Source: Phenylobacterium haematophilum | Lineage (GTDB): Bacteria; Pseudomonadota; Alphaproteobacteria; Caulobacterales; Caulobacteraceae | DNA: 64,000 nucleotides | Direction: 5' to 3' | Assembly: GCF_014196295.1 (NCBI RefSeq) | Contig: NZ_JACIDK010000001.1 | Coordinates: 662,785 to 726,784, forward strand | Part shown: positions 20,429 to 47,439 of the stretch, in pieces | Layout: each line of letters starts with the position of its first letter | Position numbering within the stretch: the stretch's first letter is position 1 | Notes under the pieces: model-generated | What the model was told of the DNA's origin: nothing | Databases searched by the model: none | What the model saw: the letters and a program-made list of their open reading frames with translations, nothing else | Translations under genes and position numbers: made by a program

Positions 20429-20431
20429 GCG

Positions 20432-20707: not shown

Positions 20708-20717
20708 GGCCGCGCCC

Positions 20718-23944: not shown

Positions 23945-23954
23945 GGCCACGCCC

Positions 23955-25688: not shown

Positions 25689-25693
25689 GAAAT

Positions 25694-26155: not shown

Positions 26156-26165
26156 GGGCGTATCC

Positions 26166-28339: not shown

Positions 28340-29281
28340 TCAATCCGCCGGGGTAGTTCGCCCCATTTCTCTTGCGAGGGTGAGCAAATTGCGAAGCGCC
28401 GCGCTACAGTTGAATGGCGACCAGACGGCCGAGAAAGGAACCGGCTCCGGTTCGTCCGCGACCGGAAGGAAAGTAACGTCGGAAGTTCGTAGCAGCGACG
28501 TAGCCGCGCCGACGATGGTGACGCCGAAGCCCTGTCCGACCATGGAAAGCAGCGTGCCGCGCTCGACATCGAAGCGTTGGATGGATGATGCCGGCCAGCG
28601 TCCGGCAAGGCGCAGCACGATATGGTCATGGACTTGTGGGCCGGTGCCGCCGTGCCGGGCAAGGAACGTCTCGCCCGCTAGATCGGCCCAGGTGACGGCG
28701 GCTTGCTTGGCGAGCCGATGCCTATCCGGCAGCGCGGCGACCAGCGGTTCGGTCCATATCCGCCGCGTGTGGCAGTCGGGTAGCTCGGGCGTGCCTGCCA
28801 TGAATACGATGTCCAGACGGTCGGCGCGCAATTGCATAACCGCATCGCGTGCCGTGCCTTCCGTGATCTCGACTTCGATGCCGGGATAGTCTGCGCGATA
28901 CTGTCCGATCAGTCCTGCGAGGAAGCTGCGAGGGATCAGGGCATGGACGCCGATGCGCAGGCGTCCGCACTCTCCTGACGCCGCCATGCCGGCGGTCTTC
29001 ACGGCATGGTCGAGTTGATCGACGCCGGCAGAAACATGCTCGACGAACTGGCGACCGGCCTCTGTCAGCCGGACGCCTCGCGCATGGCGCTCGAACAGCA
29101 AAACGCCAAGGTCTTGCTCCAGCGTCTTCACGCGAGCACTGACGCTCGACAGGCTGACGCCGAGTGCGTTCGCAGCGTGCCGGAAGTTCAGATATTCGGC
29201 GACGGCGAGCGTTTGAATGAGGGACGCGAGGGGAATGCGTGAACCCAACGAGGTCGGCACTCCCCATTTGCGGTCGATCAT
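28340..29281 (-). CDS. LysR-family transcriptional regulator
   Basis: This regulator of about 313 residues has an N-terminal winged HTH (LNFRHAANALGVSLSSVSAR, LEQDLGVLLFERHARGVRLT) and a substrate-binding domain (RLRIGVHALIPRSFLAGLIG). It lies upstream of traG on the same strand, a frequent position in this ICE group. The start at 29281 is the ATG nearest the HTH. Its ligand is unknown, and whether it controls conjugation or the nearby efflux cargo cannot be told from sequence. Confidence 0.87.
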   Translation of the reverse strand: MIDRKWGVPTSLGSRIPLASLIQTLAVAEYLNFRHAANALGVSLSSVSARVKTLEQDLGVLLFERHARGVRLTEAGRQFVEHVSAGVDQLDHAVKTAGMAASGECGRLRIGVHALIPRSFLAGLIGQYRADYPGIEVEITEGTARDAVMQLRADRLDIVFMAGTPELPDCHTRRIWTEPLVAALPDRHRLAKQAAVTWADLAGETFLARHGGTGPQVHDHIVLRLAGRWPASSIQRFDVERGTLLSMVGQGFGVTIVGAATSLLRTSDVTFLPVADEPEPVPFSAVWSPFNCSAALRNLLTLAREMGRTTPAD

Positions 29282-29398
29282 GGGTGTTGAACGCCGCCGC
29301 CGCACCGTTTCACCTGTGCTCGGTCAATCGACGGCGACCGTCGCGCCGGACACCGGGAACATTGTGAATGTCTGACCGGAAAATCAGTGGCAGACCGA

Positions 29399-30808
29399 TC
29401 ATGAGACGGCGGCCTCCCATCCGCCCCCTAGTGCCTTGTAGAGAGCGACAACGGCCATCAGTTCGCCGACGCGAGCATCAAGGCTCGCACGCTCCGCAGC
29501 GCTGTATGCGGATTGCGCGTCCAGCAATATCGTTAGGTCGTCCTCGCCAGCTTGGTAGCGCTGGCGGGCAAGATCGACCGCAGCGGCCGCCTGCGTTGTC
29601 GCCCCCTCCGCTTTCCGGCGCATGATCTGTGCGGCGGCATATCGGTTAAGCGCCGTCTCACTGTCAGTAAGCGCGCCCGTTACGCTCCGCTCGTAGCGGA
29701 TCATGGCTGCATCGGCTCGGGCATCCGCCGCCCGAATCTGCGCTCGGATGCGCCCCATGGAGAATATGGGCCAATGGAAGCTCGGCCCAACTTGCAATCG
29801 TGTGCTCGCCCCCGATGCCAGATCGCCCGCGCTCTGAGCTTGCTGACCAATCGACCCAATGAGCGATAGTCGCGGAAAGAGGTGAGCCGTGGCCACGCCA
29901 ACGTCAGCGGTGAACGCCGCCAATTCGCGCTCTGCCTGACGTATATCCGGGCGTCGCCTTAACAGTTCGGATGGAAGCCCAGCCGTAATCTGCGATGGAG
30001 CAACCGGAAGCGACCCAGGGTTCAACAGCCGAAGTGAAGTGGCCCCCGGTGCTTGGCCAGTTAGCAAGGATAAGCGATAGGCTGCCGCGCGCGCGTCGGC
30101 CTCAATCCCATCAAGGCTTACGCTGGCTGCCCGAGCCTGTGTGTCGGCACGAGCAAAGTCGAAGCGCGACGCCTCGCCGGACCTAAACCGTCTTTCGACC
30201 AGGCTGGCGATGGCCTGCTGTGCGTTGGCGTCTGCGCGAGCAACCAACAGCCTAGTTTGGGAGCCGCGTAGATCGACATAGCTTCGGACAACCTCTGCGA
30301 TCACCTGTAAGATGACATTGCGCCGGGCTTCCTGCATTGCCTCTGCACGGGCGTCCGCCGCTTCGATGCTACGCCGTGTTCGGCCCCATAGGTCGATTTC
30401 CCACGACGCATCGAATCCGAAATCGAAAAGGGAAAATTGAGGATCGAACCCCGGAACATTGGCAACCGGCAATTGACCGTTTCCGCTGACGCGGTTCGCC
30501 GTGGCCGCGCCGGATAGTGCTGCATCTGGACCGGCGCGACCGCGTGCGGCGTCGCGTAGCGCCCGCGCTTCGCGTAGGCGCGCTTCCGCCTCCCGAACGT
30601 CGTGGTTGCTGGTTACAGCCAATTCCACAAGTTCAACGAGTTGTGGATCATTGAACGAGCGCCACCAATCTTCATCAATCGGATGTGGAGTGGCAGCGGA
30701 AATCCAGCCGGGCGCCACCGCCGGGCTGGATTCGACATAGCTTGGTCCGACCGTGCAGGCCGCAACGCTAAGAGAGGCTAGTAGTGCCGGGAACGGGGGA
30801 TGACGCAT
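29399..30808 (-). CDS. Outer-membrane efflux lipoprotein (NodT/OprM family)
   Basis: A 469-residue TolC-type channel. The lipobox SVAAC follows a short signal sequence, and two outer-membrane efflux repeats are present (EIDLWGRTRRSIEAADARAE; QAERELAAFTADVGVATAHL). It is the last gene of the cargo operon, 3 nt after the second permease. It should provide the outer-membrane exit for the HlyD-ABC complex. Confidence 0.92.
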   Translation of the reverse strand: MRHPPFPALLASLSVAACTVGPSYVESSPAVAPGWISAATPHPIDEDWWRSFNDPQLVELVELAVTSNHDVREAEARLREARALRDAARGRAGPDAALSGAATANRVSGNGQLPVANVPGFDPQFSLFDFGFDASWEIDLWGRTRRSIEAADARAEAMQEARRNVILQVIAEVVRSYVDLRGSQTRLLVARADANAQQAIASLVERRFRSGEASRFDFARADTQARAASVSLDGIEADARAAAYRLSLLTGQAPGATSLRLLNPGSLPVAPSQITAGLPSELLRRRPDIRQAERELAAFTADVGVATAHLFPRLSLIGSIGQQAQSAGDLASGASTRLQVGPSFHWPIFSMGRIRAQIRAADARADAAMIRYERSVTGALTDSETALNRYAAAQIMRRKAEGATTQAAAAVDLARQRYQAGEDDLTILLDAQSAYSAAERASLDARVGELMAVVALYKALGGGWEAAVS

Positions 30809-30811
30809 GGG

Positions 30812-31936
30812 CTACTCCATCCGAGCGCGGAAAAGAATTGCCGAAACGGTCAGCGTGACGGACGCGATAGCCGCCAGCGGCCATGTGTTCGCGAGAATGA
30901 CCGCCGCAGGCATGTCTTTCAGGAAGACGCCTTCGGAGACGACGAGGAAATGCCGACAGGGATTGGCGAAAGCGATCACCTGTAGCCAGCCGGGCATGTT
31001 ATCGACTGGAGTGGCGAAGCCGGACAGCAGGATTAGCGGCACCGTCACCAGAAACATGCCGAGAAAGGCTTGTTGCTGGGTTTGCGACAACGTGGATACC
31101 AGCATTCCGACGCCGATCAGCGACACTACATAGAAGAACAGAGAGAAGTAGAACGACGCCACGGAGCCGGTAAGCGGCACTCCGAAGACCGTGGGGATAA
31201 GGATCACATAGAGCGTGGCATTGAAGAATCCGATCAGCAAAGGCGGTGCCATCTTGCCAATGAGGATTTCGTGGACCCTCAACGGCGAAACCATAAGCTG
31301 ATCGAAGGTGCCTAGCTCCCGCTCGCGGGCAACGGATTGAGCCGTAATCGACAAGGTGCCGGTTGCGCCCAGGGTCACAAGCAACGCCGGCATCACGAAC
31401 CAAAGGTATATCAGCGCGGGATTGAACCAGTTGGTGACGACGGTTCGGGTAGTGGGCTGCCCTGGAGTTGCGGCGGGGCGCGCTTCGGCTGCGACCTGGC
31501 CAATGATCTGTTGCAGGTATGAGGAAACGATCTGCGATGCGTTCGAGCGTCGCCCGTCTAGGACGATCTGAACCTCGCCAATCTGCCCGCCCTCGATAGC
31601 CGCGCTGAATCGCGAATCGAAACTGAGAACGGCGATGACCTGCTGATTGTTGATTGCCTCCCGCATGTCGTCGGGCGAGGCGAGCGGCACCATGCGGCCG
31701 ACGTTGGGGCTGCCTGCCACCCGCGAAACAATTTCATGGCTCCAGATGCCGGAATCGCGGTCTAGCACGCCAACGTCGAAGTTGCGCACTTCCAGCGTCG
31801 CCGCGAATCCGAACAGGACGAGTTGAAGTAACGGAGGCGCAATAAGGGTGATGCGAGCCCTGGGGTCGCGAAAGACCGCCCATAGCTCTTTCACGATGAT
31901 CGCAGATAGTCGCGCGAAGCTGGCGGAACTCATCAT
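30812..31936 (-). CDS. ABC-2 type transporter permease (second)
   Basis: This permease has about 374 residues. A first membrane helix follows KELWAVFRDPRARITLIAPP, then a large extracytoplasmic domain. The C-terminal ABC-2 membrane block contains GTFDQLMVSPLRVHEILIGK. It resembles YbhR/YhiI-type permeases of drug and lipid exporters. The ATG at 31936 overlaps the first permease stop by 4 nt. Confidence 0.9.
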   Translation of the reverse strand: MMSSASFARLSAIIVKELWAVFRDPRARITLIAPPLLQLVLFGFAATLEVRNFDVGVLDRDSGIWSHEIVSRVAGSPNVGRMVPLASPDDMREAINNQQVIAVLSFDSRFSAAIEGGQIGEVQIVLDGRRSNASQIVSSYLQQIIGQVAAEARPAATPGQPTTRTVVTNWFNPALIYLWFVMPALLVTLGATGTLSITAQSVARERELGTFDQLMVSPLRVHEILIGKMAPPLLIGFFNATLYVILIPTVFGVPLTGSVASFYFSLFFYVVSLIGVGMLVSTLSQTQQQAFLGMFLVTVPLILLSGFATPVDNMPGWLQVIAFANPCRHFLVVSEGVFLKDMPAAVILANTWPLAAIASVTLTVSAILFRARME

Positions 31937-33060
31937 GCGATCCTCCGGCGCGTCACTCGGAAGGCGAGGCCGAAGAACAGGAGGCCGAAACCCAGCATCG
32001 CCAGGATGCTGCGAACGAACATCGGCCAAAGATCGCCCACCACGAAAACGCTGGTCAGGGGCGGGATGAAGTAGCGGGCTGGAACCGCATAGGTCATCCC
32101 CTGAATGAATTTCGGCATCGAGCCGATCTCGAACAGAAATCCAGACAGCAGCAGGCCCGGCAAAAATGCCGTTAGCAACGCAACCTGGCTGGCCACGAAC
32201 TGATTCTTCGTCGCCGCCGAAATCAGCAAGCCTTGGCCCAATGCTGGCATGAGGAAGGCCGCGCCAACCGCATACAGCGCGAGGATCGACCCTCTAAAGG
32301 GCACGCCGAACAGGAAGACGGCGACGATGACGCAGAGCGTCATCGAACCGAGCCCGAGCACAAAATAGGGAATGATTTTCGTGGCCAGGAACTCGCCCAT
32401 GCTGACGGGCGTAGCCATCAACGCTTCGAGCGTGCCGCGCTCCCATTCCCGCGCGACGACGAGCGCGGTCAGAAGCGTCCCGATCATCGTCATGACAATG
32501 CTGATCGAGCCGGGAATGAGAGCGAACCGACTTTCGAGGCCCGGATTGAACCAGAAGCGGGGCAGCGGGGCGATTGCGGGAGCTAGTCGCACGCCACGAT
32601 CCAATGCACGGCCTTCCGCCCAGGTGGCCCGCACACCTTCGGCATAGGCGGCGACAAAGGATGCCGTGTTCGGCAGCGAGCCATCGGTAATCACCTGGAT
32701 CGGCGCGTCGATCCCGGCTGCGACCCTCTGGCCGAAATCACTCGGAATGACCACGATGCCCCGGATATGCCCAGCGATCAGTTCATCCTTGAGCGAAGTC
32801 ACGTCGCGCCGGGATTGAACCTCAAACCACCGGGATGATCGGTAGGCCCCCGCCAGGCTGGCCGCCGCTTCGCTGGAATCTTGAACCGCCAAGCCGATCC
32901 GCGTCCTCGCCGTATCGAGAGACACGCCGTATCCAAACAGGAAAAGCAGGAGCAGCGGCAGCACAAAGGCGATCAGCATCGTCGAGGGGTCGCGGAGAAT
33001 CTGTAGCGACTCCTTGACGAGCAGGGCCATGAAGCGTCGAGGATAGAAGCGGTCGTTCAT
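31933..33060 (-). CDS. ABC-2 type transporter permease (first)
   Basis: A 375-residue permease related to YbhS. It has the N-terminal LVKESLQILRDPSTMLIAFV, an extracytoplasmic domain (about 60-170) and the motif REWERGTLEALMATPVSMGE before five C-terminal helices. With the other permease it should form the heterodimeric membrane part. It overlaps both neighbouring genes by 4 nt. Confidence 0.91.
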   Translation of the reverse strand: MNDRFYPRRFMALLVKESLQILRDPSTMLIAFVLPLLLLFLFGYGVSLDTARTRIGLAVQDSSEAAASLAGAYRSSRWFEVQSRRDVTSLKDELIAGHIRGIVVIPSDFGQRVAAGIDAPIQVITDGSLPNTASFVAAYAEGVRATWAEGRALDRGVRLAPAIAPLPRFWFNPGLESRFALIPGSISIVMTMIGTLLTALVVAREWERGTLEALMATPVSMGEFLATKIIPYFVLGLGSMTLCVIVAVFLFGVPFRGSILALYAVGAAFLMPALGQGLLISAATKNQFVASQVALLTAFLPGLLLSGFLFEIGSMPKFIQGMTYAVPARYFIPPLTSVFVVGDLWPMFVRSILAMLGFGLLFFGLAFRVTRRRIA

Positions 33061-34787
33061 GCGGCCTCCCGCTTTCGATCCGTTTCCTCGATCAGCGCAA
33101 TGAAAGCGTCCTCCATCGTAAGGTCTGTGCCGCCACTGATTTCAGCCGCGCGGATTTTGAGGTCTTCGGGCGTGCCTTGGGCGATTTCCTGTGCGCGATA
33201 GATCAGCGCTATGCGGTCGCAATATTCCGCTTCTTCCATAAAGTGGGTGGTGACGAGCACCGTCACGCCGCGTTGCACGAGGCCGTTGATGTGCAACCAG
33301 AACTCGCGGCGGGTGATAGGGTCCACGCCCGATGTCGGCTCATCCAAGAAAAGCACGGGCGGTTGATGGAGCACGGCGCAGGCAAGCGAGAGCCGTTGCT
33401 TGAAGCCTAGCGGCAATGTTCCGCTGTTCACCGGCAGATGACGTTCAAGCTGGAAAATGTCGATGACGCGCGCAACGGCCTCGGCCCGCTGGCGTCGATT
33501 CAAGCCATAGGCTCCGGCGAAGAAGTCCAGATTTTGTTTGACGCTAAGATCGCCATACAAGGAAAATTTCTGCGCCATGTAGCCGAGAGACTGACGCGCC
33601 TCCGCGCTGGCGGTGCGAAGATCATGGCCGGCAACGCGGCCTTCGCCCGCTGTCGGCGTGAGAAGCCCGCAAAGCATCTTGAAGGTCGTGGATTTGCCCG
33701 CGCCGTTCGGCCCGAGAAGGCCGAATATCCGGCCTTGCGGCACGGAGAATGTGATGTCGCCTGCCGCCGTGAACGTCCCAAACACCTTGGTAAGCCCTCG
33801 CGCCTCGATGGCCGGCGCGTCGGACTTTTCGATGGGCTTGTAGCTCGCGGCGAGTTGGCTGACGCCTTTCGGTCCTCCACCAAGGATGTCAATGAACGCA
33901 TCCTCAAATCGCGGCTGCACGGCTTCGATTCGGTCGCCCTGCGACATTCCGAATCGTTCTGTGGTCGGCGCAGCAGCGCCTTCGTCCATGAGGACGCGAA
34001 CGGAAGCGCCCTGAATGGTGGCGTCCTTTACATCGTCGCGAAGGACAAGGCTGGCGAGTAAAGACCGCCGGCTTTCGGAAGGACCAAACAGACGATAGGT
34101 CCGACCTTCGACACGGGATGTCAGCCGCTTCGGCGGTCCACTGAACAGCAGCTTGCCTTCGTTCAGCAGGAATACCGTATCGCACTTCTCGGCCTCGTCG
34201 AGATAGGCGGTGGACCAGACGACGCCCATGCCCTCCGTCGTGAGCTGGCGGACCATCGCCCATAGTTCCCGTCTGGCCACGGGATCGACGCCAACGCCAG
34301 GCTCATCAAGCAGCAGCACGCGAGGGGGCCGCACCAGTGCGCAGGCCAGGCCCAGCTTTTGCTTCATGCCGCCCGATAGACGGCCAGCCAACCGGGGGCG
34401 GAATCGCTCAAGGTCCGTGAAAGACAGGAGTTGGGAAAAGCGCTCCGTGCGTTCTTTCCCTGGGGGTAAACCGCGAAGATCAGCGTAGAGTGAAAGGTTC
34501 TCGATAACCGACAGGTCTTCGTAGAGTCCGAAGCGTTGCGGCATGTAGCCTAGTGCCGATCTATCGGCCGCGATGGCGGGCTCGCCGAGAAGGGTAACTT
34601 CCCCTTCATCCGGGTCGAGCAATCCAGCGAGCAAACGGATCAGGGTTGTCTTGCCCGCGCCATCAGGGCCGACCAAGCCCGTCATCACGCCGCCCATCAC
34701 CTCCATGCTCACGGCATCAAGTGCCGGGGCTGCATTGGGCGCGAAGCGTTTGGTGACATCTACAGCGTGGGCAACTGCCTCTGTCAT
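33057..34787 (-). CDS. Tandem ABC transporter ATPase (YbhF-like)
   Basis: The protein has 576 residues and two nucleotide-binding domains. The first has Walker A GPDGAGKTTL, signature GRLSGGMKQK and Walker B LLLDEPGVGVDP. The second has GPNGAGKSTT and LFLDEPTSGVDP, but its signature is LPLGFKQR in place of LSGGQ, so the two ATP sites are probably unequal. This is the YbhF arrangement of tripartite exporters with two ABC-2 permeases and a HlyD adaptor. Confidence 0.92.
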   Translation of the reverse strand: MTEAVAHAVDVTKRFAPNAAPALDAVSMEVMGGVMTGLVGPDGAGKTTLIRLLAGLLDPDEGEVTLLGEPAIAADRSALGYMPQRFGLYEDLSVIENLSLYADLRGLPPGKERTERFSQLLSFTDLERFRPRLAGRLSGGMKQKLGLACALVRPPRVLLLDEPGVGVDPVARRELWAMVRQLTTEGMGVVWSTAYLDEAEKCDTVFLLNEGKLLFSGPPKRLTSRVEGRTYRLFGPSESRRSLLASLVLRDDVKDATIQGASVRVLMDEGAAAPTTERFGMSQGDRIEAVQPRFEDAFIDILGGGPKGVSQLAASYKPIEKSDAPAIEARGLTKVFGTFTAAGDITFSVPQGRIFGLLGPNGAGKSTTFKMLCGLLTPTAGEGRVAGHDLRTASAEARQSLGYMAQKFSLYGDLSVKQNLDFFAGAYGLNRRQRAEAVARVIDIFQLERHLPVNSGTLPLGFKQRLSLACAVLHQPPVLFLDEPTSGVDPITRREFWLHINGLVQRGVTVLVTTHFMEEAEYCDRIALIYRAQEIAQGTPEDLKIRAAEISGGTDLTMEDAFIALIEETDRKREAA

Positions 34788-34788
34788 T

Positions 34789-35796
34789 TCACTGGCCCGC
34801 CCCTGGGTCCGGGCTCTGCTGGAGCCTCACGGTCACGGGCTGACCTTGACGGAGACGGTCATCGGGATCGGTGACGTTGATCCTCAAACGATAAACGAGG
34901 TCGGCGCGCAGTTGTTCGGTCTGAACCGTCCTCGGCGTAAATTCGGCGGTTGGTGAAATGAAGCCGATGACACCACGATAGACTTTGGGGTTGCCGTCAG
35001 TGGTTACGAACACGGTCATGCCGGGCGCGATCCGCCCAAGGTCGGGTTCGGCAACATAGGCGCGCACCCGGATCGGCCGATTGATGGTGAGCGTGAAGAT
35101 AGTTGCGCCGGATTGGACGATGGCACCGGGCTCGGCCGCTCGCGTGAGGATCGTGCCAGCGTCCGGTGCTTTAAGCGTCGTGTCGGCCAGATTGGTTTTC
35201 ACCCTATCGCGTTCCGCTATCGCGGCCGCGAGTTGCGCCTCCGCAGCCGCGATGTCTTCGACGCGAGAGCCGGCGCGCAGCAGCGCCAAGGCTTCCTCCG
35301 CCGCGCGAAGCTGCGCTTCGGCGGCGCGGTATTCAGCCTCGGCGGCCTCGAAAACCGATTGGGATACAGCGCCGGTAGCAACCAGCGCCCGGCGACGCTG
35401 GAAGGCTTTTCGGGTTCGCACCATGTCCGCCCTTCGGACGGCGACCGCAGCCTCCGCCTGGGCAATTTCCTGGGGTCGATTCCCGTTGCGCCGTTTTTCG
35501 AGTTCGGCGCGAGCGGTCGCAACCTGCGCTTCCGCACCCGCCAGCGCGTCGATGAATGGCTGTTGGTCAAGCTGCGCCAGAGTTGCCCCAGCCTCGACCG
35601 AAGCACCTTCATCAATCGGCATTTCGGCGATACGACCCGCAACGCGAAACCCGAGATTCACCTGACGAATATCGACATTCCCATAAAGGACCAGCCCCTC
35701 GTTGGGCTTGTCCAAGAAGCCGAAGCCGCGAGTGTAGTATCCCGCCGCTGCGACGCCCGCGATGATGACTGCCAGGATGATGATGCGGCGGGACAC
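34789..35796 (-). CDS. HlyD-family membrane fusion protein (YbhG-like)
   Basis: This 335-residue periplasmic adaptor has an N-terminal anchor (IIILAVIIAGVAAAGYY), a biotinyl-lipoyl-like half motif (GRIAEMPIDEGASVEAGATL), a long Ala/Glu-rich coiled coil (about 90-210) and a beta-barrel region. It bridges the ABC permeases and the NodT channel. The start is GTG at 35796, overlapping the tetR stop by one base. Confidence 0.9.
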   Translation of the reverse strand: MSRRIIILAVIIAGVAAAGYYTRGFGFLDKPNEGLVLYGNVDIRQVNLGFRVAGRIAEMPIDEGASVEAGATLAQLDQQPFIDALAGAEAQVATARAELEKRRNGNRPQEIAQAEAAVAVRRADMVRTRKAFQRRRALVATGAVSQSVFEAAEAEYRAAEAQLRAAEEALALLRAGSRVEDIAAAEAQLAAAIAERDRVKTNLADTTLKAPDAGTILTRAAEPGAIVQSGATIFTLTINRPIRVRAYVAEPDLGRIAPGMTVFVTTDGNPKVYRGVIGFISPTAEFTPRTVQTEQLRADLVYRLRINVTDPDDRLRQGQPVTVRLQQSPDPGAGQ

Positions 35797-36482
35797 TATG
35801 CGCCCCCCACATTCGGGGAGGCAGGCGCAATGGACCCGACGAGTTCAACCACCAAAGCCTCAATGGCTGCGAGGCCCTTGTCGTCTATCGTCTCCCAATC
35901 GAGCGCGGCGAGGACCGAAGCGCGCCCCACCCTGAACATGAGGACGCTTCCAACCAATGCGAGGGTTCTGAGGCGCACATGCTCGGAAGCAGAGTCTTCG
36001 TCGAGCAAGGTTCCAATTAGATGGTCACATATATTGAGCAGCGGTCCCATCAAGTCGTCGTAGAGGCAACGAAAGGCCGTAGTCGGCTGCATCTGCTCGC
36101 GGATAATGAAGCGCGCCCAAGGCTCGGAACGGCTGCTCACGAATAGCGCCGCCATCCGCTGAATGATCTCGGTCAGCAGGCGGCGTGCCTCATCCGTGCC
36201 AAGCGGCGTTCCCGAGCGCGCTTCTTCGACACGGGCAAAGACGAGGCTTCGCAGCGGGGCGATATGATCCTTGATGCCATCCCCGATGGAGGTGGCCGCA
36301 GCGAGGTAAAGGCCCTCCTTGTTCCCGAAGTAGTAGGCGATTGCCTGCTGGTTTGCCCCGGCCTTCTCGCAAAGCATCCGGGTCGTCGCGCCGTCGAAAC
36401 CGACACGCCCGAAAACATCCACGGCTGCGATAAGCAGCTTCTCGCGAGTTTGATCGCCGCGTTCGATCTTTCGTCCCGACAT
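35796..36482 (-). CDS. TetR/AcrR-family repressor (CecR-like)
   Basis: This repressor of about 228 residues has the N-terminal HTH RVGFDGATTRMLCEKAGANQ then IAYYFGNKEGLYL, and a DUF1956-type C-terminal domain as in CecR/YbiH. CecR relatives control ybhG-ybhFSR exporters, the same layout as here. It is the first gene of the efflux operon. A palindrome over its own promoter (36586-36607) recurs at the nearby hydrolase gene, suggesting autorepression and joint control. The ATG at 36482 is preferred over an earlier in-frame start. Confidence 0.9.
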   Translation of the reverse strand: MSGRKIERGDQTREKLLIAAVDVFGRVGFDGATTRMLCEKAGANQQAIAYYFGNKEGLYLAAATSIGDGIKDHIAPLRSLVFARVEEARSGTPLGTDEARRLLTEIIQRMAALFVSSRSEPWARFIIREQMQPTTAFRCLYDDLMGPLLNICDHLIGTLLDEDSASEHVRLRTLALVGSVLMFRVGRASVLAALDWETIDDKGLAAIEALVVELVGSIAPASPNVGGA

Positions 36483-36585
36483 GACGCCCGTGCTCCATCC
36501 TTCATCTTGGGAACCGAAAGCCGCCCTGCGCTCCCTCGCGGCGAGTCGGCTCCATCCCACGATCAAACCTAGCGTGGACCAGAGA

Positions 36586-37926: not shown

Positions 37927-39978
37927 CTACAGCCCCAAACCCTTCTGCCGGCCCAATTGCCACGACACCGAACCGCCCTGCACGACGCCCGCGATTTCAC
38001 GGCCGAGCTGGCGGTCGATGACAGGTCGCCATGGGACAAGGGTAAACTCGTGCGCTTTCTCGACGATGGCGAACTTGCCGCTGGTTAGCTGCACGGTGCC
38101 AGTGAACTTGCCGCTGACGGTTTCGCCATCGGCGACGGCGCGGAACGGCAGCGACTTGTTCGCCGCCATCGCCGTGCCGAAGCTGGCAACCTCGCGCTCG
38201 CGCAGCGTCGCGAGAAGATTGCGCCGATAGAAGATTCGGCCGTCCCGGCTGCGCGTGGCGTCGCCATGCTCGACGTGATGCTCGCGGCGCTGGTCCATCG
38301 CCTCGCGCACCTGCTGGCCGAAGCCGGCCGATGCAAGGTCGGTTGCGTCGGGCGTAACCAAGCGCCGGTCGAGCCAGGTCGCGCCGTCCGCGCCGATCTG
38401 CTTTTCAAGGTCGAGCACCGAAAGGACGCGAACGCTGGCTTGCCGGTTGCGGCCGGCGTCGTAGGCAGTGGCGCGGCTCTCGAAATCCTCGGGGATGCGC
38501 CATTGGTCGGCGTCGATCCGCGCGACAATGCCGGCCCGGCGCAATGCCTCCAGCCGGCGCACATGAGCATCGACATATCCCTCATAGTCGCCGCCCGGAA
38601 CGCGGCCCTCGAACTTCGCCTGTTCCAGATGGCGGCTCGGCCGATAGACGCCATCCTCGGCGATGGCGGCAATGGTCCGGTCGGACGGACGGCTTGCCGT
38701 TTCGGCCGGGCCGATCTCGACGACGCTGCCTATCCGCGCGTCCTCAACGCGGGCCGGGTCGATGCCGGCGACATGGTGGGTCCGGCCGTCGATCCCGTCC
38801 ACCACGACGGTCAGGTTCTCGCCCAGCTCGTCGGACAGATACTTATCGACGACGCGGCCGACGATGGGCTTTTCGGGCGGCCCGTCATGGACTTGGAAGG
38901 TCAGCGGGTCGCGCTCCAGGCCATCGGCCTTCAACGCCTTGTGCATGTTGCGGATGATGTCGCCGCGCTCGCCCATCTCGCGCAAGGTCGGCTCCATGCG
39001 CTCGCTCATTTCCCAAACGCCCGGCGCGTGCTCGGTCGCCAACCCCATCTTGTCTAGCTTGGCGAGACGGCGCAGGCGCAGGGCGCGATTGAACTGGCGG
39101 CGCGGCTCGGCCGGCTCTTGGCGAAGGTCGAGGAACCTGTCGTCGGCTTCCTCGACCATCGCCCGGTCGATGCGGGTGAAACGGTCCTGGTCGATCTCGG
39201 CCGACAGCTTACGGGTCTGCTCGATCTCGGAGACGGGGCCAAGCTCCAGCGTGGTCAATTCGCTTGCCCGCTCGCGTATGCCGTTGGCGAGATAGTCGCC
39301 GTTGATGACAAGGTTCTCGCCCAGGTCGTCCTTGCCGCGCACGATGACATGCACATGGGGATGGCCGGTGTTGTGGTGATTGACCGCAACCCAATCCAGT
39401 TTCGTGCCAAGGTCGGCTTCCATCTGGCGCATGAGGTCGCGGGTATAGGCTGTCAGGTCCGACAGGTCCGCGCCGTCCTCCGGCGAGACGATGAATCTGA
39501 ATTGGTGGCGATCCTCCTGGCCGCGCTCAAGGAATGCAGCGCCATCGGCGCGGTCCTCGGTCGCCGAATAGAGCTGCCCGCGCTCGCCGTCGCGCGATGT
39601 GCCGTCGCGCTGGATGTAGCGCAGATGGGCGGCCGCCCTTCCGTTCCTGCCCGCCTCCTTGACGTAGCGGGTCTTGACGACGACGCGGCGCATTCCGGGC
39701 GCGCTGTGACGCCAGCCGCCCGACAGGGTGCGAGCGCGCACGAAGGCCGCGCCGCGTCCGCGCCGGACGCCCGGTCCTCCTGACGAACGCGCGCCCTTGC
39801 CGCCCTTGGCGGTCGGGGTCTTGCCTGGGCGCGGCGACGATCTGGATGACGTGGTGCTGTGCTGCCGCGCGATCTTCTTCGCCTGCGTGAGAAAGCTCTT
39901 GGTCTTGCCGCCCTTCGGCGCGTCGGATCGGATGCGACCGGGCTTCGGGCGGAAGCGGGTTTCGTCGTCGGCGCTCAT
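37927..39978 (-). CDS. rlxS: Relaxase (RlxS/DUF3363 type, MOBP/VirD2-like)
   Basis: This 683-residue DNA-nicking protein has a basic N-terminal tail (GRIRSDAPKGGKTKSF) followed by the relaxase domain. Its metal-binding His cluster is NTGHPHVHVIVRGKDD (about 205-220), and the C-terminal half is DUF3363. It should nick oriT and pilot the strand through TraG. The ATG at 39978 overlaps the preceding small gene by 4 nt. It ends the rdfS-repA-traF operon, next to the cargo block. Confidence 0.92.
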   Translation of the reverse strand: MSADDETRFRPKPGRIRSDAPKGGKTKSFLTQAKKIARQHSTTSSRSSPRPGKTPTAKGGKGARSSGGPGVRRGRGAAFVRARTLSGGWRHSAPGMRRVVVKTRYVKEAGRNGRAAAHLRYIQRDGTSRDGERGQLYSATEDRADGAAFLERGQEDRHQFRFIVSPEDGADLSDLTAYTRDLMRQMEADLGTKLDWVAVNHHNTGHPHVHVIVRGKDDLGENLVINGDYLANGIRERASELTTLELGPVSEIEQTRKLSAEIDQDRFTRIDRAMVEEADDRFLDLRQEPAEPRRQFNRALRLRRLAKLDKMGLATEHAPGVWEMSERMEPTLREMGERGDIIRNMHKALKADGLERDPLTFQVHDGPPEKPIVGRVVDKYLSDELGENLTVVVDGIDGRTHHVAGIDPARVEDARIGSVVEIGPAETASRPSDRTIAAIAEDGVYRPSRHLEQAKFEGRVPGGDYEGYVDAHVRRLEALRRAGIVARIDADQWRIPEDFESRATAYDAGRNRQASVRVLSVLDLEKQIGADGATWLDRRLVTPDATDLASAGFGQQVREAMDQRREHHVEHGDATRSRDGRIFYRRNLLATLREREVASFGTAMAANKSLPFRAVADGETVSGKFTGTVQLTSGKFAIVEKAHEFTLVPWRPVIDRQLGREIAGVVQGGSVSWQLGRQKGLGL

Positions 39979-40295
39979 GGACGCGCCTCCGGCCAAAATC
40001 CAAGGAAATCGGGCACTCGGCGGTCATGGTGCCGGTCGAAACCCAGCAAAGCCAAGGCTTTGCGCAACATCGCGGCACGCGGGATTAAAAAGCATGGTGC
40101 CGCTCGCGGCTCCCCTAACCAGTGTGCAGACAACAACAATTTCAGAAATCCGGCCGACCTAGTGCCGGTTTCCTTTATCTTGCCCTCCGCTCTTTCGTCC
40201 TTCTCTGCCTCTCCGGCCCGGTATGCTGCCAGACGCGAACCCGCCTGACTGCACACCGGATCGTCCGCCGCCGAGCGCGGGAATGCCACCTTCAT
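39975..40295 (-). CDS. Small hypothetical protein between lytic transglycosylase and relaxase
   Basis: A 106-residue frame beginning MKVAFPRSAADDPVCSQ with a Trp/Phe/Arg-rich C-terminus. I do not recognise it. Its start overlaps the transglycosylase stop by 4 nt and its stop overlaps the relaxase start by 4 nt, which strongly supports translation. Codon use is not clearly different from neighbours. It may be a relaxosome accessory factor, or it may be translated only to couple rlxS. oriT could also lie in or near this stretch. Confidence 0.55.
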   Translation of the reverse strand: MKVAFPRSAADDPVCSQAGSRLAAYRAGEAEKDERAEGKIKETGTRSAGFLKLLLSAHWLGEPRAAPCFLIPRAAMLRKALALLGFDRHHDRRVPDFLGFWPEARP

Positions 40296-41197
40296 GGCGT
40301 ATCTCCGACGCTCGCGCGGGCTACAAAAATGCTGCCGTCTTGCGGTTCCATAGCGGCGGGATCGCGCACCGGAACGGTCGCGCGAGCGTCGCCGGATTGC
40401 GCGTCGGACGGCTGCGCGGCGATTGCCCGGCTGTCATTCGGCCGCATGATAAAGAGCGGTGCGTCGCGCCAGTCGGGCGGCGGTGGCGGTGCCGATGACG
40501 GCGCTTCCGATGCAGCCGCACCGCCAAGGATCGGCGCGAGCGCGGCGACATAGGCGCGTGTCTCGGCCGGTAGCGGACGGCCGGTCGAACGGTGCTCGTC
40601 GTAGCGGCCGGGGCCGGCATTGTAGGCCGCGAGCATCGCGCCGACATTGCCGTAGCGATCCCACATCTCGCGCAGATAGGCCGTGCCTGCGAGGATGTTG
40701 TCGCGGGGCTGATAGGGATCGCGGCCGAGCCGGTGACGGGCACGCAGGCCCGCCCAGGTGTCGGGCATAACCTGCATCAATCCCATCGCGCCGGCCGACG
40801 AAATCGCGCGCACGTCGCCCGCGCTCTCGGCGCGCAGGACGGCGCGAATCCAGTGTTCGGGGATGCCGAACCGCTGCGACGCCTCGGTGATGTGCGCGGC
40901 ATAGGGATCGACGGCAACCGGGCGCACGACCGACGCGGATTGCGCGACCGCGACGCCCGATCCGGCGCTGACTGATAGTGCGCCGGCCAGCAACAGGACG
41001 GCATAGCGCCATGGCTTCCTGTCGCCGCTATGACGCCAGCCTGCCAGCGTGCTCGCTACGGTAAAGGGTGCGCGCAAAGCGCCGGCCGGTGGCCGCCCTT
41101 GACCTTCGCTGCGCGCGCCGGCCGTCTTGTCGCCGAGCGGGACGAAGGGATGCGAGTGCGTTCCCGCGAACAAAGGGATGATCGGAACGCGCACCAA
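40292..41197 (-). CDS. Lytic transglycosylase (SLT domain)
   Basis: A 301-residue frame. A hydrophobic export signal lies around residues 66-85 (YAVLLLAGALSVSAGSGVAV), so the true start may be internal. The SLT domain has catalytic Glu in RAVLRAESAGD, then SSAGAMGLMQVMPDTW and AAYNAGPGRYDE. It locally opens peptidoglycan for the secretion channel, like TrbN/VirB1. It directly follows the DUF736 stop. Confidence 0.9.
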   Translation of the reverse strand: MVRVPIIPLFAGTHSHPFVPLGDKTAGARSEGQGRPPAGALRAPFTVASTLAGWRHSGDRKPWRYAVLLLAGALSVSAGSGVAVAQSASVVRPVAVDPYAAHITEASQRFGIPEHWIRAVLRAESAGDVRAISSAGAMGLMQVMPDTWAGLRARHRLGRDPYQPRDNILAGTAYLREMWDRYGNVGAMLAAYNAGPGRYDEHRSTGRPLPAETRAYVAALAPILGGAAASEAPSSAPPPPPDWRDAPLFIMRPNDSRAIAAQPSDAQSGDARATVPVRDPAAMEPQDGSIFVARASVGDTP

Positions 41198-41530
41198 TTA
41201 GCTCCGATCCTCGCGCGCCTTCGGCCGCTTCCACGCGAGCCGGAAGGTGCGTGCCTCGTCGTCGGCCTGGAACAGCGCCGGGCGAAACAGCGCAGGGAAA
41301 AGCGGGCTGTCGATCTCCAGGGCGATGTAATCCCCCGCGCGTTCGCCGACACGTTTCCAAGCCCCGCCGATCTCGGGGCCGTCCTCGTCGTCAAGGTGGA
41401 TGCGATAGGCCGGCGTGTTCTCGCCGTCGCCCGGCTCGATGGCGACGAGCACGATTGCCTCGTCAATGCCGAACAGCCGGACGCGGCCGGCGTAACCGTT
41501 GGCGGTGGGTTCAAAGATATTGGCGGGCAT
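41198..41530 (-). CDS. DUF736 family protein
   Basis: This 110-residue protein starts MPANIFEPTANGYAGRVRLF, the DUF736 pattern, here with the C-terminus FRLAWKRPKARED. DUF736 genes are near-universal companions of traF and the relaxase in alphaproteobacterial ICEs and plasmids; the function is unknown. AAGGAGA before the ATG at 41530 fixes the start. The larger open frame upstream is not coding. Confidence 0.88.
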   Translation of the reverse strand: MPANIFEPTANGYAGRVRLFGIDEAIVLVAIEPGDGENTPAYRIHLDDEDGPEIGGAWKRVGERAGDYIALEIDSPLFPALFRPALFQADDEARTFRLAWKRPKAREDRS

Positions 41531-41567
41531 TGTAAGTCTCCTTGCGATTGGTTGGGGAAGCGCGAAG

Positions 41568-42113
41568 TCAGTGCGTCGGCGCGCGCCACTCGAAGCGGCC
41601 GACGCCTTCCTCATCGGTCCAGAGCGGGACCGCTCGGCCGATGACGGAGCTTGCGGGGATGGGTCCGAAGTAACGGCCGTCTAGGCTGTCGCGGACATCC
41701 CAATTCATGAGGAAGATTTCGCCGGGCGCGATGACGCGGCAGCCCTGCCAGGCAGGCAGTTCACGGCCGATCCGGTCGCGCTCCAGCGCCTCGCCCATCT
41801 CGATCCCGTCAACCGTGATCGTGCGGCCGGCGCGGCAAACCCACTGCCCTGGAAGGCCGACGACGCGCTTCAACAGCGGCACGCCGCGTCCGACATAGCC
41901 GCGCTGCACCATGAAGGCGGCGAGCGGTTCGGGCGGCATGACCGCGACCAGCTCGGGCACCTCGATCCGGTCGGCCGGCTCGACGGTGTAGAAGCCTACC
42001 GGCGCGCTGGCCGTGGCGTTCCAAATGAGTTTCGTCGGCGTCTCGATGGCGCTTGCGACGGCAACGCCCATCGCGGCCAGCGCCGTGACGGCGAGATAGC
42101 GGCGGCGCGTCAC
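41568..42113 (-). CDS. traF: TraF, S26-family signal peptidase for pilin maturation
   Basis: A protein of about 181 residues with an N-terminal membrane segment (YLAVTALAAMGVAVASAI). The S26 pattern follows, with Ser in NATASAPVGFY and Lys in VPLLKRVVGLPG, and the late GEIFLMNWDVRDSLDGRYFG. In RP4, TraF cleaves and cyclises TrbC. The start is GTG at 42113, overlapping the DUF2840 stop by 4 nt; the long N-terminal extension in the open frame is an artefact. Confidence 0.91.
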   Translation of the reverse strand: MTRRRYLAVTALAAMGVAVASAIETPTKLIWNATASAPVGFYTVEPADRIEVPELVAVMPPEPLAAFMVQRGYVGRGVPLLKRVVGLPGQWVCRAGRTITVDGIEMGEALERDRIGRELPAWQGCRVIAPGEIFLMNWDVRDSLDGRYFGPIPASSVIGRAVPLWTDEEGVGRFEWRAPTH

Positions 42114-42628
42114 GGGTCGATCCTCCGACGCCCAATCCACGCCGCATGTCGTTCCGGCGTGTAGTCGCTCGGCTCCAGATTGGCGGCTAGGCGGTTGTGC
42201 GCGTGTCGCCAGTAGTCCGGTGACACGTCGGCCGGGTCGAGTCCCAGCGCCTCCACGGCGTCGATGACGGCAAGTGCGCGCTGCACTTTCGGCCAGCCGT
42301 CCAGGCGTAAAAGGATGTCGCCCCCAGGCCGGACGAAGGGCAATGTCTGGAACGGCTCGCCCCGACCGATGGCCCGCGCGATGTCGATGCGTGAAATGAT
42401 CGTGCCGTGCTCGCCGGCCGCCCAACGGACGAAGGCGAAGATGTTGTTCGGCGCGAAGCCGACGACGCTTCGGCGACGGTCGATGATCTGTTCGTAGCTC
42501 TTGCGGCCGAAGCGTATCCAGTGCTCGACCTTGCGTTTCTCGAAAGTCAATTCGACAAGCGTGGTGAAGGGCGCGGGTCCGTCCGGCAGCGGACGGCCGT
42601 GCGCGCTGCGATGGGCGCGACGGGTCAT
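42110..42628 (-). CDS. DUF2840 family protein
   Basis: The protein has 172 residues with the conserved stretch TLVELTFEKRKVEHWIRFGR and later FVRWAAGEHGTIISRIDIAR and PGGDILLRLDGWPKVQRAL. DUF2840 is found beside traF and repA in this ICE family; no function is established. The ATG at 42628 is preferred to an upstream start that lies inside the end of repA. Translationally coupled to traF. Confidence 0.86.
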   Translation of the reverse strand: MTRRAHRSAHGRPLPDGPAPFTTLVELTFEKRKVEHWIRFGRKSYEQIIDRRRSVVGFAPNNIFAFVRWAAGEHGTIISRIDIARAIGRGEPFQTLPFVRPGGDILLRLDGWPKVQRALAVIDAVEALGLDPADVSPDYWRHAHNRLAANLEPSDYTPERHAAWIGRRRIDP

Positions 42629-42686
42629 TGTTCGTCTCCGGTGATGGCTTGGGGGTTGCGCGGGCGCACCGCGTCGAGCGCGGGCG

Positions 42687-43766
42687 TCATGGTTCGCCTC
42701 GCTCGGCGGCACCGGCACCACGCCTCGCGTGTGCGCGCGTCAAAGAAGAAAAGTTAGATTCTCTGTTAGACTCTAAGTTAGCGGTCGGATTGCGCGTTTC
42801 AGGCCAAAGCGTTAGCTGGGGTTCGTGCGCCTGATCTGCCGATAGGGTTGCGCCTGATGTGCCGATACCCCGTGCGCCTGATGTGCCGATGGCATTCACA
42901 CCGTTATCAACAGGCACTGTGGACAGGTTTACCGGGCAGATGCGAAGCAGCTCACGGCCGTCTTCCCGCTCGATCTGGAGTCGATAGCCAGGAAGCGGCT
43001 GGCGGGCCGCGATGCGGCGCAAGTCGAGCGCAAAATCGGACAGCCGTGCGAGGCTGCCGGATTTCTGATGAAGGTGCGCAAACTCGAACAGCCAGCCATG
43101 GCGCTGGCGGCCGGCGTGCTTACGGGCGACGCGGTAAAGCCAACGCTCGATGCCGCCTGTCAGCCGGAAATAGGCCGGGTCGATGGTCAGGACCAACGAG
43201 CGGTCGATGACGCTGTTGTAGAACCATTCGGGCAAGACAAATTCCATGCCCTCGACGCGGCCGGCGCGCGTCGTCATTTCCTCCCACTCGTTGATCCATG
43301 AGAATTGCCGGCGACGCCAATGCGGGCCGTTGCGGATGGTGGTGGCGATGACGGTCGATTGCAGTCGCGCCAGCGCGGCTTTCAGCAGCAGGTATTGATG
43401 GTTGCCGGTCGGCCGCCCGATGGCGCGCAGCAGATGGTAAGGCGTGAAGCGGACGAAGCGTGACGTGGTGAGGCCGTTGTTTTCGGCCGCGACGATCTGC
43501 GAGGCCGCCCATATCAGCACGTCGGCGTCCCATATCGTCGCCATGCCGTGCTCGGGCATCCCGAACACCTGCACCTCGACATCGGCGGCCTTGTAGAAAA
43601 TAGGCTTGGTGCGCGGCGTCTTCGCCAGGGAGAAGAACGGCCGCTCCATCAAATCGCGCTGGTCGCGCGGTGCGGCGTCGCCGGTCGCGACCACGAAGGG
43701 GTCGAGTCGGCTGCGTTCGCTGGCGTCGGCCGGCTGCGCGGGGCTATGGTCGTCCTCGCGTAGCAT
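42687..43766 (-). CDS. repA: Replication initiator protein A (RepA/RPA family)
   Basis: This 359-residue protein starts immediately after the rdfS stop. ERPFFSLAKTPRTKPIFY, VEVQVFGMPEHGMATIWDAD and HQYLLLKAALARLQSTVI are typical of the RPA family, which initiates replication of plasmids and some ICEs. The last third is low in conservation and contains GIGTSGA repeats. These are encoded by three iteron-like 17-bp repeats, next to DnaA-box-like sites. It may support replication of the excised circle. Confidence 0.9.
   Translation of the reverse strand: MLREDDHSPAQPADASERSRLDPFVVATGDAAPRDQRDLMERPFFSLAKTPRTKPIFYKAADVEVQVFGMPEHGMATIWDADVLIWAASQIVAAENNGLTTSRFVRFTPYHLLRAIGRPTGNHQYLLLKAALARLQSTVIATTIRNGPHWRRRQFSWINEWEEMTTRAGRVEGMEFVLPEWFYNSVIDRSLVLTIDPAYFRLTGGIERWLYRVARKHAGRQRHGWLFEFAHLHQKSGSLARLSDFALDLRRIAARQPLPGYRLQIEREDGRELLRICPVNLSTVPVDNGVNAIGTSGARGIGTSGATLSADQAHEPQLTLWPETRNPTANLESNRESNFSSLTRAHARRGAGAAERGEP
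42827..42890 (+). repeat. Three iteron-like 17-bp repeats within repA
   Basis: GCGCCTGATSTGCCGAT occurs at 42827-42843, 42850-42866 and 42874-42890, with a period of 23-24 bp; only one base differs between copies. Close by are TTATCAACA (42904-42912, one base from the DnaA box) and TGTGGACAG (42918-42926, partial DnaA match). The spacing, about two helical turns, fits binding of an initiator such as RepA. Confidence 0.65.
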
Positions 43767-44039
43767 TCAGCAATCGCCCAGCTCTTTGGGCGTGAGCGGA
43801 CGCGCGGGAAAAACCGTGCCGGCGTTCTTGTCGCGCGTGGATTTGCGGGTGCCGACCGCGCTCCAGGCTTCAAGGTCGCGGACGGTATAGAGGACGCGCC
43901 CGCCGATCTTGCGATAGGTCGGGCCGGTGCCGTATGTGCGATGCTTCTCAAGGGTGCGGACGGACAGGCCGAGAAAGCGCGCGGCTTCCTGTGTGCGAAG
44001 CAGGCGCGGCGGCAGGTCCGCGTTGCGGCGGATGGCCAT
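43767..44039 (-). CDS. rdfS: RdfS-like excisionase (AlpA-type HTH recombination directionality factor)
   Basis: This 90-residue winged HTH protein has the sequence LLRTQEAARFLGLSVRTLEK then GPTYRKIGGRVLYTVRDLEA, the MerR/AlpA-like excisionase pattern. In ICEMlSym, RdfS has this form, lies upstream of traF and rlxS, and drives excision; the same order is seen here. The ATG at 44039 has AGGTGA upstream; the longer frame runs into the duplicated leader. It is the first gene of the excision-replication-transfer operon and probably the target of FseA. Confidence 0.85.
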   Translation of the reverse strand: MAIRRNADLPPRLLRTQEAARFLGLSVRTLEKHRTYGTGPTYRKIGGRVLYTVRDLEAWSAVGTRKSTRDKNAGTVFPARPLTPKELGDC

Positions 44040-44095: not shown

Positions 44096-44165
44096 GCGAA
44101 CCATGGCGAGGGATCGGCGGCGCGTAGCGTGCCGCATTTGCGCCTATGCGCTGGCGGCACCCCTT
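44096..44165 (-). promoter_or_regulatory. Duplicated leader element upstream of rdfS (copy 2)
   Basis: About 70 bp nearly identical to 16003-16070, ahead of the recombinase operon. The core GTAGCGTGCCGCATTTGCG is identical and starts 87 bp from the rdfS start codon. A shorter TGGTTCGT near the ribosome-binding site is also shared, while the stretch between differs. Confidence 0.75.
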
Positions 44166-44267: not shown

Positions 44268-44436
44268 CGGAGCAGACGCGCTGCTCCGGGGCGTAGTAAC
44301 CCCTGGTTAGCGGTTGGTGCCGGCCGTGACGGCATCAAACTCCTTGACCTTATGGTCGGGGAGCCTGTGGCGTATACAACAGGCTCTCCGAGCTAAAGGC
44401 CATAGGGCCGTCTAACCACGGTTACTAACTCCCCGA
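44268..44436 (+). promoter_or_regulatory. Nested inverted repeats in the rdfS/qseM intergenic region
   Basis: The 370-bp gap between rdfS and the divergent QseM-like gene is full of dyads. There is an 8-bp hairpin at 44268-44288 (CGGAGCAG/CTGCTCCG) and long near-complementary arms at 44295-44313 and 44408-44426. A central stem GAGCCTGT/ACAGGCTC lies at 44361-44386, with small stems GACC-TTAT-GGTC (44346-44357) and GGCC-ATAG-GGCC (44398-44409). TCGGGGAG (44356-44363) can also pair with CTCCCCGA (44429-44436), which excludes the central stem. It could be an operator array, att-like or origin site, or an attenuator ahead of qseM. Confidence 0.55.
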
Positions 44437-44508: not shown

Positions 44509-44796
44509 ATGCAAGTGCCCGTCGAACTCGATCCCGATGTGGACGACGAAGCCCCAACGGGAAACGACATAACGCCTTATGACGAACGGCATTACGTCAC
44601 CTATCTGCGCCTTCTCGACGCGAAGGCCGAAGGGGCGGACTGGATGGAAGTCGCGCGAATCGTGCTGCATCGCGATCCGGTCGGCGATGAAGCGCGGACC
44701 CGGCGATGCTGGGAAAGTCACCTTGCCCGCGCCCAATGGCTTTCACGCGAAGGCTATCGGCGAATCTTGGAACAGGCGGTCGCGGCCGGGCGCTGA
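44509..44796 (+). CDS. qseM: QseM-like DUF2285 protein (putative antiactivator)
   Basis: This 95-residue protein is the only plus-strand gene in the ICE. Its C-terminal half (WMEVARIVL ... RRCWESHLARAQWLSREGYR) aligns by eye with the end of FseA (YRTIAEVLL ... RRLVAHGLKMMRGGYR), so both share the DUF2285 HTH-like domain. In ICEMlSym, QseM is a small DUF2285 protein that binds and blocks FseA and TraR. Here there is no TraR or TraI, so FseA is the likely partner. It converges on fseA with 13 bp between the stops. The symbol is by analogy. Confidence 0.72.
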   Translation: MQVPVELDPDVDDEAPTGNDITPYDERHYVTYLRLLDAKAEGADWMEVARIVLHRDPVGDEARTRRCWESHLARAQWLSREGYRRILEQAVAAGR

Positions 44797-44809: not shown

Positions 44810-45593
44810 TCACTCGGCAGGCGATTTGATCGGATAGTGCAGCAATAGGCGGTAGCCGCCCCTCATCATCTTCAGGCCGTGCGCGACCAATCGGCGGGCC
44901 TGGTTCTTGCGCGGGTCGGCTTCCCAATCCTCCTTGGTCCCGCGAAAGCCAAGCAGGACTTCCGCGATGGTGCGATAGCTTTCGCCTCGCAAGCGGGCGT
45001 CGAGCGCGCGCAGGGACAGGATATGAAACTTGCGGAGCTGCGCCGGCAGGGTGCGGAAGTCCGCGCCGGGCGCTCGCCCATTGAGGGACCGCCAAAGTCG
45101 GCGGGCGGCATGGGCGCGAAGCTCCATGAAAGAATCCATCGGAAGGGATACGGCATAGAAGGCCGCTGCGTCGGGCACGGCCTGGGGCAGCCAGAATTGA
45201 TGCGCGACGCCATCCACATTCCAGATGCCATGCCACCCATCCGCTGCGTGCCGTAGGTCGAGGCCGGACAGGTGCGCCAGCGTCACTATAGGTTCCGTCG
45301 CCCCGTCGCGATGCTGCACCGGGGACAAGAGAACCGCTTGCGGCTGGAGACTTGGAATCCAGAACAGGGATTGCCGATCAGGCGGCGTTTCGGGATCGCA
45401 CGGGAAATCGCAAACCCCAACGCTGCGAGAATCCGTCAAGCTGGTCGCCAGCCGGCTCCTTCACCTGGGATATTGTTTGGAAGTCGCGATGATAGTCCTC
45501 ATGGCGACGAAGATACTCCCAGGCGAAACCGGCGGGGGGAATAGCTTTCGCGTGCCCGTAAGCCGCCGGCGCACGCCAATCAATGCTAAGCAT
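44810..45593 (-). CDS. fseA: FseA-like excision activator, DUF6499 + DUF2285, in two frames (+1 frameshift)
   Basis: Frame 1 (45593-45378) encodes a 71-residue DUF6499-like part with FAWEYLRRHEDYHRDFQ and a very strong AGGGAGGTGA ribosome-binding site. Frame 2 (45460-44810) encodes the DUF2285 part (LPAQLRKFHILSLRALDARL, then GGYRLLLHYP). It has no good start, only TTG at 45439. Frame 2 is +1 to frame 1. Both are open between 45460 and 45381. Slipping UUU to UUC at 45405-45407 would give one protein of about 260 residues. In ICEMlSym, the same two domains are joined by programmed +1 frameshifting into FseA, the activator of rdfS. Confidence 0.82.
45402..45407 (-). promoter_or_regulatory. Candidate +1 ribosomal frameshift site in fseA
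   Basis: On the coding strand the codons read CGA-UUU-CCC-GUG in frame 1. Moving one base forward gives UUC-CCG-UGC, which is frame 2. tRNA-Phe(GAA) pairs better with UUC than UUU, a common basis for +1 slipping. It is one plausible site in the 80-nt overlap; the exact site is inferred. Confidence 0.55.
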
Positions 45594-45685
45594 GGCGTCA
45601 CCTCCCTATACCGGACGGCGCAGGGCAACGCCCGGATAGAGAGTTTCCGGAATCGCCAACACTGGATATAGCTGGAGTTATACGG

Positions 45686-47365: not shown

Positions 47366-47439
47366 ATTTTCATGGTTCATTTTGGAGGGCTATGGAGTAA
47401 ACGTAGTGCTCATCGGTATCCCGCACGTCCCGCCAAGCC

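Follow-up and report, generated by a model that had tools for sequence, protein, structure and literature searches.

A split fseA gene with a conserved, probable +1 frameshift site on a serine-integrase ICE of Phenylobacterium haematophilum

FseA is thought to be the protein that switches on the transfer of a mobile element, and in ICEMlSymR7A a +1 frameshift that occurs at low frequency yields it, according to the available extracts of its description (PMC10359603). The stretch of Phenylobacterium haematophilum DNA analysed here – 64,000 nucleotides of contig NZ_JACIDK010000001.1, referred to below as the window – contains, at positions 44810–45593 of the minus strand, two overlapping open reading frames that resemble the two halves of such a protein. 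The question is whether they are expressed as one protein through ribosomal frameshifting, as a first-pass annotation of the same DNA proposed, or whether they represent a broken gene, an assembly error or two separate genes.

The upstream frame (frame A; 45378–45593) starts at ATG 45593, 7 nt downstream of a Shine–Dalgarno sequence, GGGAGG (45601–45606, minus strand, read directly), and ends at UGA 45380–45378, thus encoding 71 residues if no frameshift occurs. It matches the entire DUF6499 profile (PF20109) with an E value of 3.7e-24. The good ribosome-binding site and the DUF6499-like frame of the first-pass annotation both hold; the AWEFLRRN-like motif of the FseA family is present as AWEYLRRH (residues 24–31), and DUF6499 is also the NCBI label of the counterpart on a related plasmid. 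Frame B, as read after a +1 shift, covers 44810–45403, with its stop at 44812–44810, and contains a match to DUF2285/RovC_DNA-bd (PF10074; E 1.1e-29; about 45145–44837, minus strand). This DUF2285 part is basic, with a net charge of +8 and a pI of 10.9 over residues 175–255 of the joined protein. Since frame B is opened by UGA 45463–45461, the interval in which both frames are open is 45460–45381 (80 nt), exactly as first annotated. Within it lies the sequence UGG GGU UUG CGA UUU C (45404–45419, minus strand), whose slip codon UUU (45407–45405) is followed by CCC (45404–45402); slipping to UUC, with one base skipped, joins 63 and 197 residues into a product of 260, again in agreement with the site and the approximate length already noted. 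The initial observation is, in short, correct in nearly every detail; the one reservation, concerning the start of frame B, is taken up below.

In its domains and the order they stand in, in its +1 geometry and in its UUU-C core, the gene fits what is described of FseA of Mesorhizobium japonicum R7A (Msi172–Msi171), likewise two open reading frames joined by +1 frameshifting, the comparison being with the published description of R7A in its available parts. The same source, in the portion available, reports 4709 collected FseA homologues from throughout the proteobacteria, about 61% of them split (PMC10359603). The gene in the window fits this set, and no feature that would distinguish it was seen at the frameshift site. 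The observation is real and well supported, and of a kind already described. The support comes from the architecture, the conservation of the break, selection in both frames, constraint on UUU followed by a pyrimidine, and the neighbouring genes.

A scan of genome contigs yielded eight close homologous loci, 79–99% identical in their best segment, from Pseudogemmobacter, Mesorhizobium, Devosia and metagenome-assembled genomes. All eight have the +1 break together with CGA UUU CCC, in a DNA alignment free of gaps, although L034–L036 are nearly one element and L038 closely resembles L039, which leaves about five independent cases among the eight. Substitutions among these relatives fall mostly at third positions of frame A before the slip site and at third positions of frame B after it. 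For the four relatives in which dN/dS was computed (L037, L038, L040 and L041), the values are 0.16–0.21 for frame A upstream and 0.10–0.17 for frame B downstream of the slip site, whereas reading the frames on the wrong side gives 1.3–1.4 for frame B upstream and 3.3 to 11.7 for frame A over a stretch downstream. Purifying selection thus tracks frame A before the slip site and frame B after it.

A wider set was assembled from searches for PF20109 in 100, 385 and 398 genomes, from which 30, 28 and 26 new loci, respectively, were examined among the matches listed. To these were added, among others, 20 stretches hand-picked from the 398-genome search, the loci of the close-relative scan and eight plasmid regions, fetched from 30 that were listed out of 75 matching records. 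The resulting 115 distinct rows comprise 69 split copies, 38 single-frame copies and eight without a recognised C-terminal part, the last being excluded from all counts. The break at the junction is +1 in every one of the 69 split copies: in 68 as determined by script and in L100 by reading the junction, the script having scored −1 for that copy because the gene breaks again at a later point. Of these copies, 67 have UUU as their slip codon and two (L033 and L048) have UGU, and the base that follows is C in 66 and U in three. A slippery UUU followed by a pyrimidine is the rule derived here, and the copy in the window, with UUU-C, conforms to it. The rule is not absolute, given the two UGU copies, as tRNA-Cys would hardly be able to re-pair in the +1 frame; in both (L033 at 1624 and L048 at 1684), GGAGG replaces a run of GGGGG, and these genes may have decayed or may shift in another way.

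Reducing the set to 58 representatives that share less than 80% identity leaves 56 with UUU at the slip site, two with UGU and none with UUC, while the rest of these genes contains 395 Phe codons, 104 of them UUU and 291 UUC (p 4e-29 for UUU versus UUC at the slip site, a value that, like the others of its kind, overstates independence because the sampled sequences are related). Three more codon preferences stand out against the rest of the genes. GGG is used at the nearby Gly codon in 37 of 55 representatives, compared with 122 of 928 elsewhere; UUA or UUG in 34 of 48, compared with 193 of 1626; and CGA in 23 of the 29 representatives that encode Arg directly before UUU, compared with 180 of 1759 Arg codons elsewhere. 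The resulting 16-nt signature, UGG GGG UUG CGA UUU C, marks bases beyond UUU-C that are kept beyond what the protein needs. If one homologous place of shifting is assumed, the stop codons of all 69 copies restrict it to between −2 and +8 relative to the slip codon.

In prfB, an internal Shine–Dalgarno sequence acts as a frameshift stimulator. An element of this type is a possible stimulator in fseA too, given the GGG preference at the Gly codon; the window, however, has GGU instead, with a spacing of 6 nt to UUU, and around the slip site no 8-nt stretch passed a duplex-energy threshold of −6. Folding of the window's own sequence in this region likewise gave no downstream RNA structure attributable to the slip site.

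The split copies can also be compared with homologues that carry the same domains in a single frame. When 18 of these were aligned with two joined proteins, the W-G-x-x-x-x-x-D-P spacing generated by the +1 product was found in 16, the exceptions being L141, which has N-P, and L060, without D-P at that place. The W-G motif occurs in 35 of the 38 single-frame copies; in 16 of these, the fourth or fifth residue past the W is Phe, encoded by UUC in 13 and by UUU in three. A single-frame protein from the Polaromonas plasmid pPNAP01 (L071) aligns in one piece with residues 3–254 of the joined query; unlike the gene in the window, it has CUG CUG in place of UUU CCC, and its locus has the order FseA–HTH–RepA–ParA–DUF2840. 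The best solved relative by sequence is RovC (PDB 6xz5), an activator of a type VI secretion system, as stated in the accessible part of PMC10359603. The match is weak – E 0.014 for the whole protein, which misses the default threshold, and 4.8 for residues 193–228 – and is in the same register over the latter stretch. In a tree of 93 rows (55 split and 38 single-frame; L033, L100 and L097 were left out, L097 on account of an early stop in its frame B), the state changes eight times between split and single-frame, at least six of the changes being forced by well-supported branches, and the gene in the window belongs to a supported clade of 12 split copies.

Several further observations concern the family as a whole. 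In the split copies L097 and L100, frame B is cut short or broken a second time past the slip site, and in L126 (from 1073) a DUF6499 frame close to that of the window runs, as judged by eye, into a transposase-like open reading frame, this fseA being apparently interrupted by an insertion. The host genome itself has two more split fseA genes, L002/L029 and L003 (contigs C1 and C2), both +1 with UUU-C. Searches for relatives gave no match in phage records (distant blastn) and no relative in viral contigs.

Could the break nonetheless be a sequencing error or a recent inactivating indel in what is functionally a single-frame gene? That such genes exist, and that the state has changed repeatedly on the tree, lends the idea some initial appeal, yet the same break recurs in all eight close homologues, which come from other assemblies, and selection is maintained in both frames, which makes this account of the gene vanishingly improbable; the finding that would have spoken for it, a majority of close homologues in one frame, was looked for, and all eight are split. 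Another reading is that two proteins are made, translation of DUF2285 beginning at a start codon of its own or re-initiating past the stop of frame A. NCBI annotates the halves as separate genes in four of the related plasmids that were fetched, and the first-pass annotation's statement that frame B has no credible start needs qualifying. Between 45451 and 45127, frame B offers 13 ATG, GTG, TTG or CTG codons, none of the ATG, GTG and TTG codons having an evident ribosome-binding site, and that part of the statement stands; CTG 45451, however, alone follows closely upon a purine-rich AAGGAG (both points assessed by eye). This CTG is kept in L040 and L041 but absent from the other six of the eight close relatives, and frame B is under protein selection only after the slip site, not upstream. 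Moreover, the residues right after the junction (DP and W) match those of the single-frame proteins, and UUU with its pyrimidine is conserved beyond its amino acid, so that translation as two proteins is most improbable. Overall, it is very improbable that the break reflects a sequencing error, a pseudogene or a pair of independent genes.

A variant closer to the favoured mechanism places the shift one codon earlier, with CGA in the P site and tRNA-Phe reading the +1 codon UUC in the A site, the first U being skipped; the product would be identical. The excess of CGA before UUU, described above, speaks for it. However, a base that is skipped should be unconstrained, and yet the slip codon begins with U in all 69 split copies, which favours slippage on UUU itself over the preceding codon; in addition, the codon before UUU is not CGA in 35 of the 58 representatives. 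We regard this earlier shift as improbable, with only a slim chance of being correct.

The FseA family is characterised by linkage to RdfS-like and QseM-like genes on conjugative elements, and both are found here, as they are in ICEMlSymR7A, to judge from what is available of its description. The QseM-like antiactivator (44509–44796, plus strand; PF10074 E 1.9e-7) consists of DUF2285 alone and, compared with two plasmid proteins that carry a DUF2285 annotation and lie beside fseA, shows 47 and 53% identity over ~76 residues. It is acidic, with a pI of 4.96 versus 10.9 for the DUF2285 part of FseA; the surface charges reported for R7A, in the accessible part of that work, agree with an acidic QseM and a basic FseA DUF2285, and QseM is said there to bind DUF6499 (PMC10359603). 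Unlike its counterpart in ICEMlSymR7A, the qseM-like gene is convergent with, and downstream of, fseA. Next comes, at 43767–44039 (minus strand), an RdfS-like winged-helix protein that matches the HTH_17 profile, has as its best PHROG an excisionase and transcriptional regulator, and is 68 and 72% identical to HTH proteins at the same place on two plasmids. It is followed on the minus strand by RepA (PF10134; 42687–43766), a DUF2840 protein with an S26 peptidase of the TraF type (41568–42721) and, at 37927–41614, a DUF736 protein, a lytic transglycosylase and an RlxS-like DUF3363 relaxase.

By analogy with R7A, where FseA is described, in the extracts available, as binding an inverted repeat beside the rdfS promoter (PMC10359603), the RdfS-like gene is a probable target of FseA. 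A weak candidate for the FseA box, GTGCCGC-N18-GCGGCAC (44129–44160, minus strand), lies upstream of it, with arms kept in five of seven aligned relatives; its spacer is longer than the reported 15–16 bp between hexamers, and taken alone it is not significant. A separate inverted repeat, GAGCCTGT-N10-ACAGGCTC (44361–44386), located between the qseM-like and rdfS-like genes, is identical in L038 and L039 and nearly identical in L034–L036 and L040, and is possibly an operator.

Taken together, we consider it highly probable that this is a split fseA in which a +1 slip on UUU produces an FseA that activates the rdfS-like operon and is opposed by the QseM-like protein; the slippage, its low frequency, the DNA binding by FseA and the action of QseM are carried over from the work on R7A. 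Ribosomes would start at ATG 45593, and most would stop at UGA 45380, releasing the 71-residue DUF6499 peptide. A fraction, with tRNA-Phe in the P site on UUU (45407–45405), would slip by +1, re-pair with UUC and read on in frame B, giving small amounts of the 260-residue FseA, in which DUF6499 is joined to DUF2285. FseA would then activate the promoter of the downstream operon (rdfS–repA–DUF2840–traF–relaxase), and the acidic QseM-like protein would oppose it by binding its DUF6499 part. A further, less likely possibility is that the peptide from non-shifting ribosomes is itself a decoy that titrates QseM.

The distinctive aspect of this case is where the gene sits, namely in an ICE of about 34.2 kb that occupies a tRNA-Ser gene and combines a large serine integrase with a QseM-like antiactivator and an RdfS-like gene. 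Its ends are placed at 13256 and 47435. At the right end, GTCCCGCCA (47427–47435, plus strand), position 47435 is the last one homologous to L034 and L036, and with L035 the homology extends by one more base; the left end is placed at the 3′ end of tRNA-Ser(UGA) (13167–13256, plus strand), on the grounds that CCGCCA is common to both ends, and is thus putative. The integrase (13224–15182, minus strand) matches the Resolvase, Recombinase and Zn_ribbon_recom profiles, which agrees with the earlier claim that it is of another class than that of R7A; its start may have been called too early, as the relative L094 matches only from residue 94. On its upstream side, the integrase gene is directly adjoined and overlapped by genes for a TumE-type toxin (15283–15636) and an HVO_A0114-like antitoxin, the latter an open reading frame. 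Genes for Trb-type conjugation and a coupling protein follow (16316–28154, minus strand), with trbK also present, as is ArdA, and the cargo (28340–36566) comprises LysR and TetR/CecR regulators, an outer membrane efflux protein, ABC-2 permeases with an ATPase, and an HlyD-type adaptor. The serine integrase at tRNA-Ser, repA, DUF2840 and trbK distinguish the element from ICEMlSymR7A.

Close relatives of the integrase (at least 69% identical) are found in five of the eight genomes with close fseA homologues, three of which (L034, L038 and L040) have it on the fseA contig and two (L035 and L039) on a different one; searching the genomes of L036, L037 and L041 for the integrase gave none or only distant ones. 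Six integrase regions were fetched, of which three lie beside tRNA-Ser genes (anticodons TGA, CGA and GCT) and one beside tRNA-Arg; of the other two, one had no tRNA found and one has tRNA-Phe ~1 kb off. In the genome of L040, Devosia equisanguinis, a serine integrase relative (L095, 2491–4334) that lies at a short distance from fseA is itself in two frames. The combination of fseA with a serine integrase is not unprecedented: the available part of a survey of 41 Mesorhizobium genomes states that all ICEs identified carry rdfS and fseA, and that one has a serine integrase (PMC8627217).

The element also differs from ICEMlSymR7A in its upper regulatory layer. A search of the host genome for PF00765 (Autoind_synth) found no LuxI synthase, although the same search was positive in five of eight other genomes, and the sole match to PF03472 (Autoind_bind) in the host genome lies outside the ICE. 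Likewise, a search for QseC with four queries, plasmid proteins that are encoded near fseA and annotated as regulators of the helix-turn-helix type, found none. From its gene content, the element thus appears to be missing the R7A-type quorum-sensing tier, TraR/TraI.

How might FseA relate to the integrase? The first-pass inference that this ICE uses the same brake as R7A is supported, and the brake may bear on excision by the serine integrase or on the downstream RdfS-like/repA/relaxase operon alone. RdfS is described with tyrosine recombinases, in those parts of PMC11963761 and PMC5882170 that are available. That a frameshifted FseA, acting through such a winged-helix protein, controls the direction of a large serine integrase is a tentative idea that we consider unlikely, though worth stating; if true, one recombinase class would have its direction set by a factor of the kind known from another, with frameshifting and antiactivation as the gate and no part for quorum sensing. 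In seven of the eight plasmid regions fetched, too, fseA is followed by an HTH gene, which makes a role of the RdfS-like protein in transfer alone possible.

Because related copies are annotated as two genes, a master regulator of transfer is easily missed. The window offers a small element of natural origin (34 kb) that combines the FseA/QseM brake with a serine integrase, and the search of its host's genome found no LuxI synthase; such a setting allows a test of whether RdfS-type proteins are directionality factors or regulators of transfer only.
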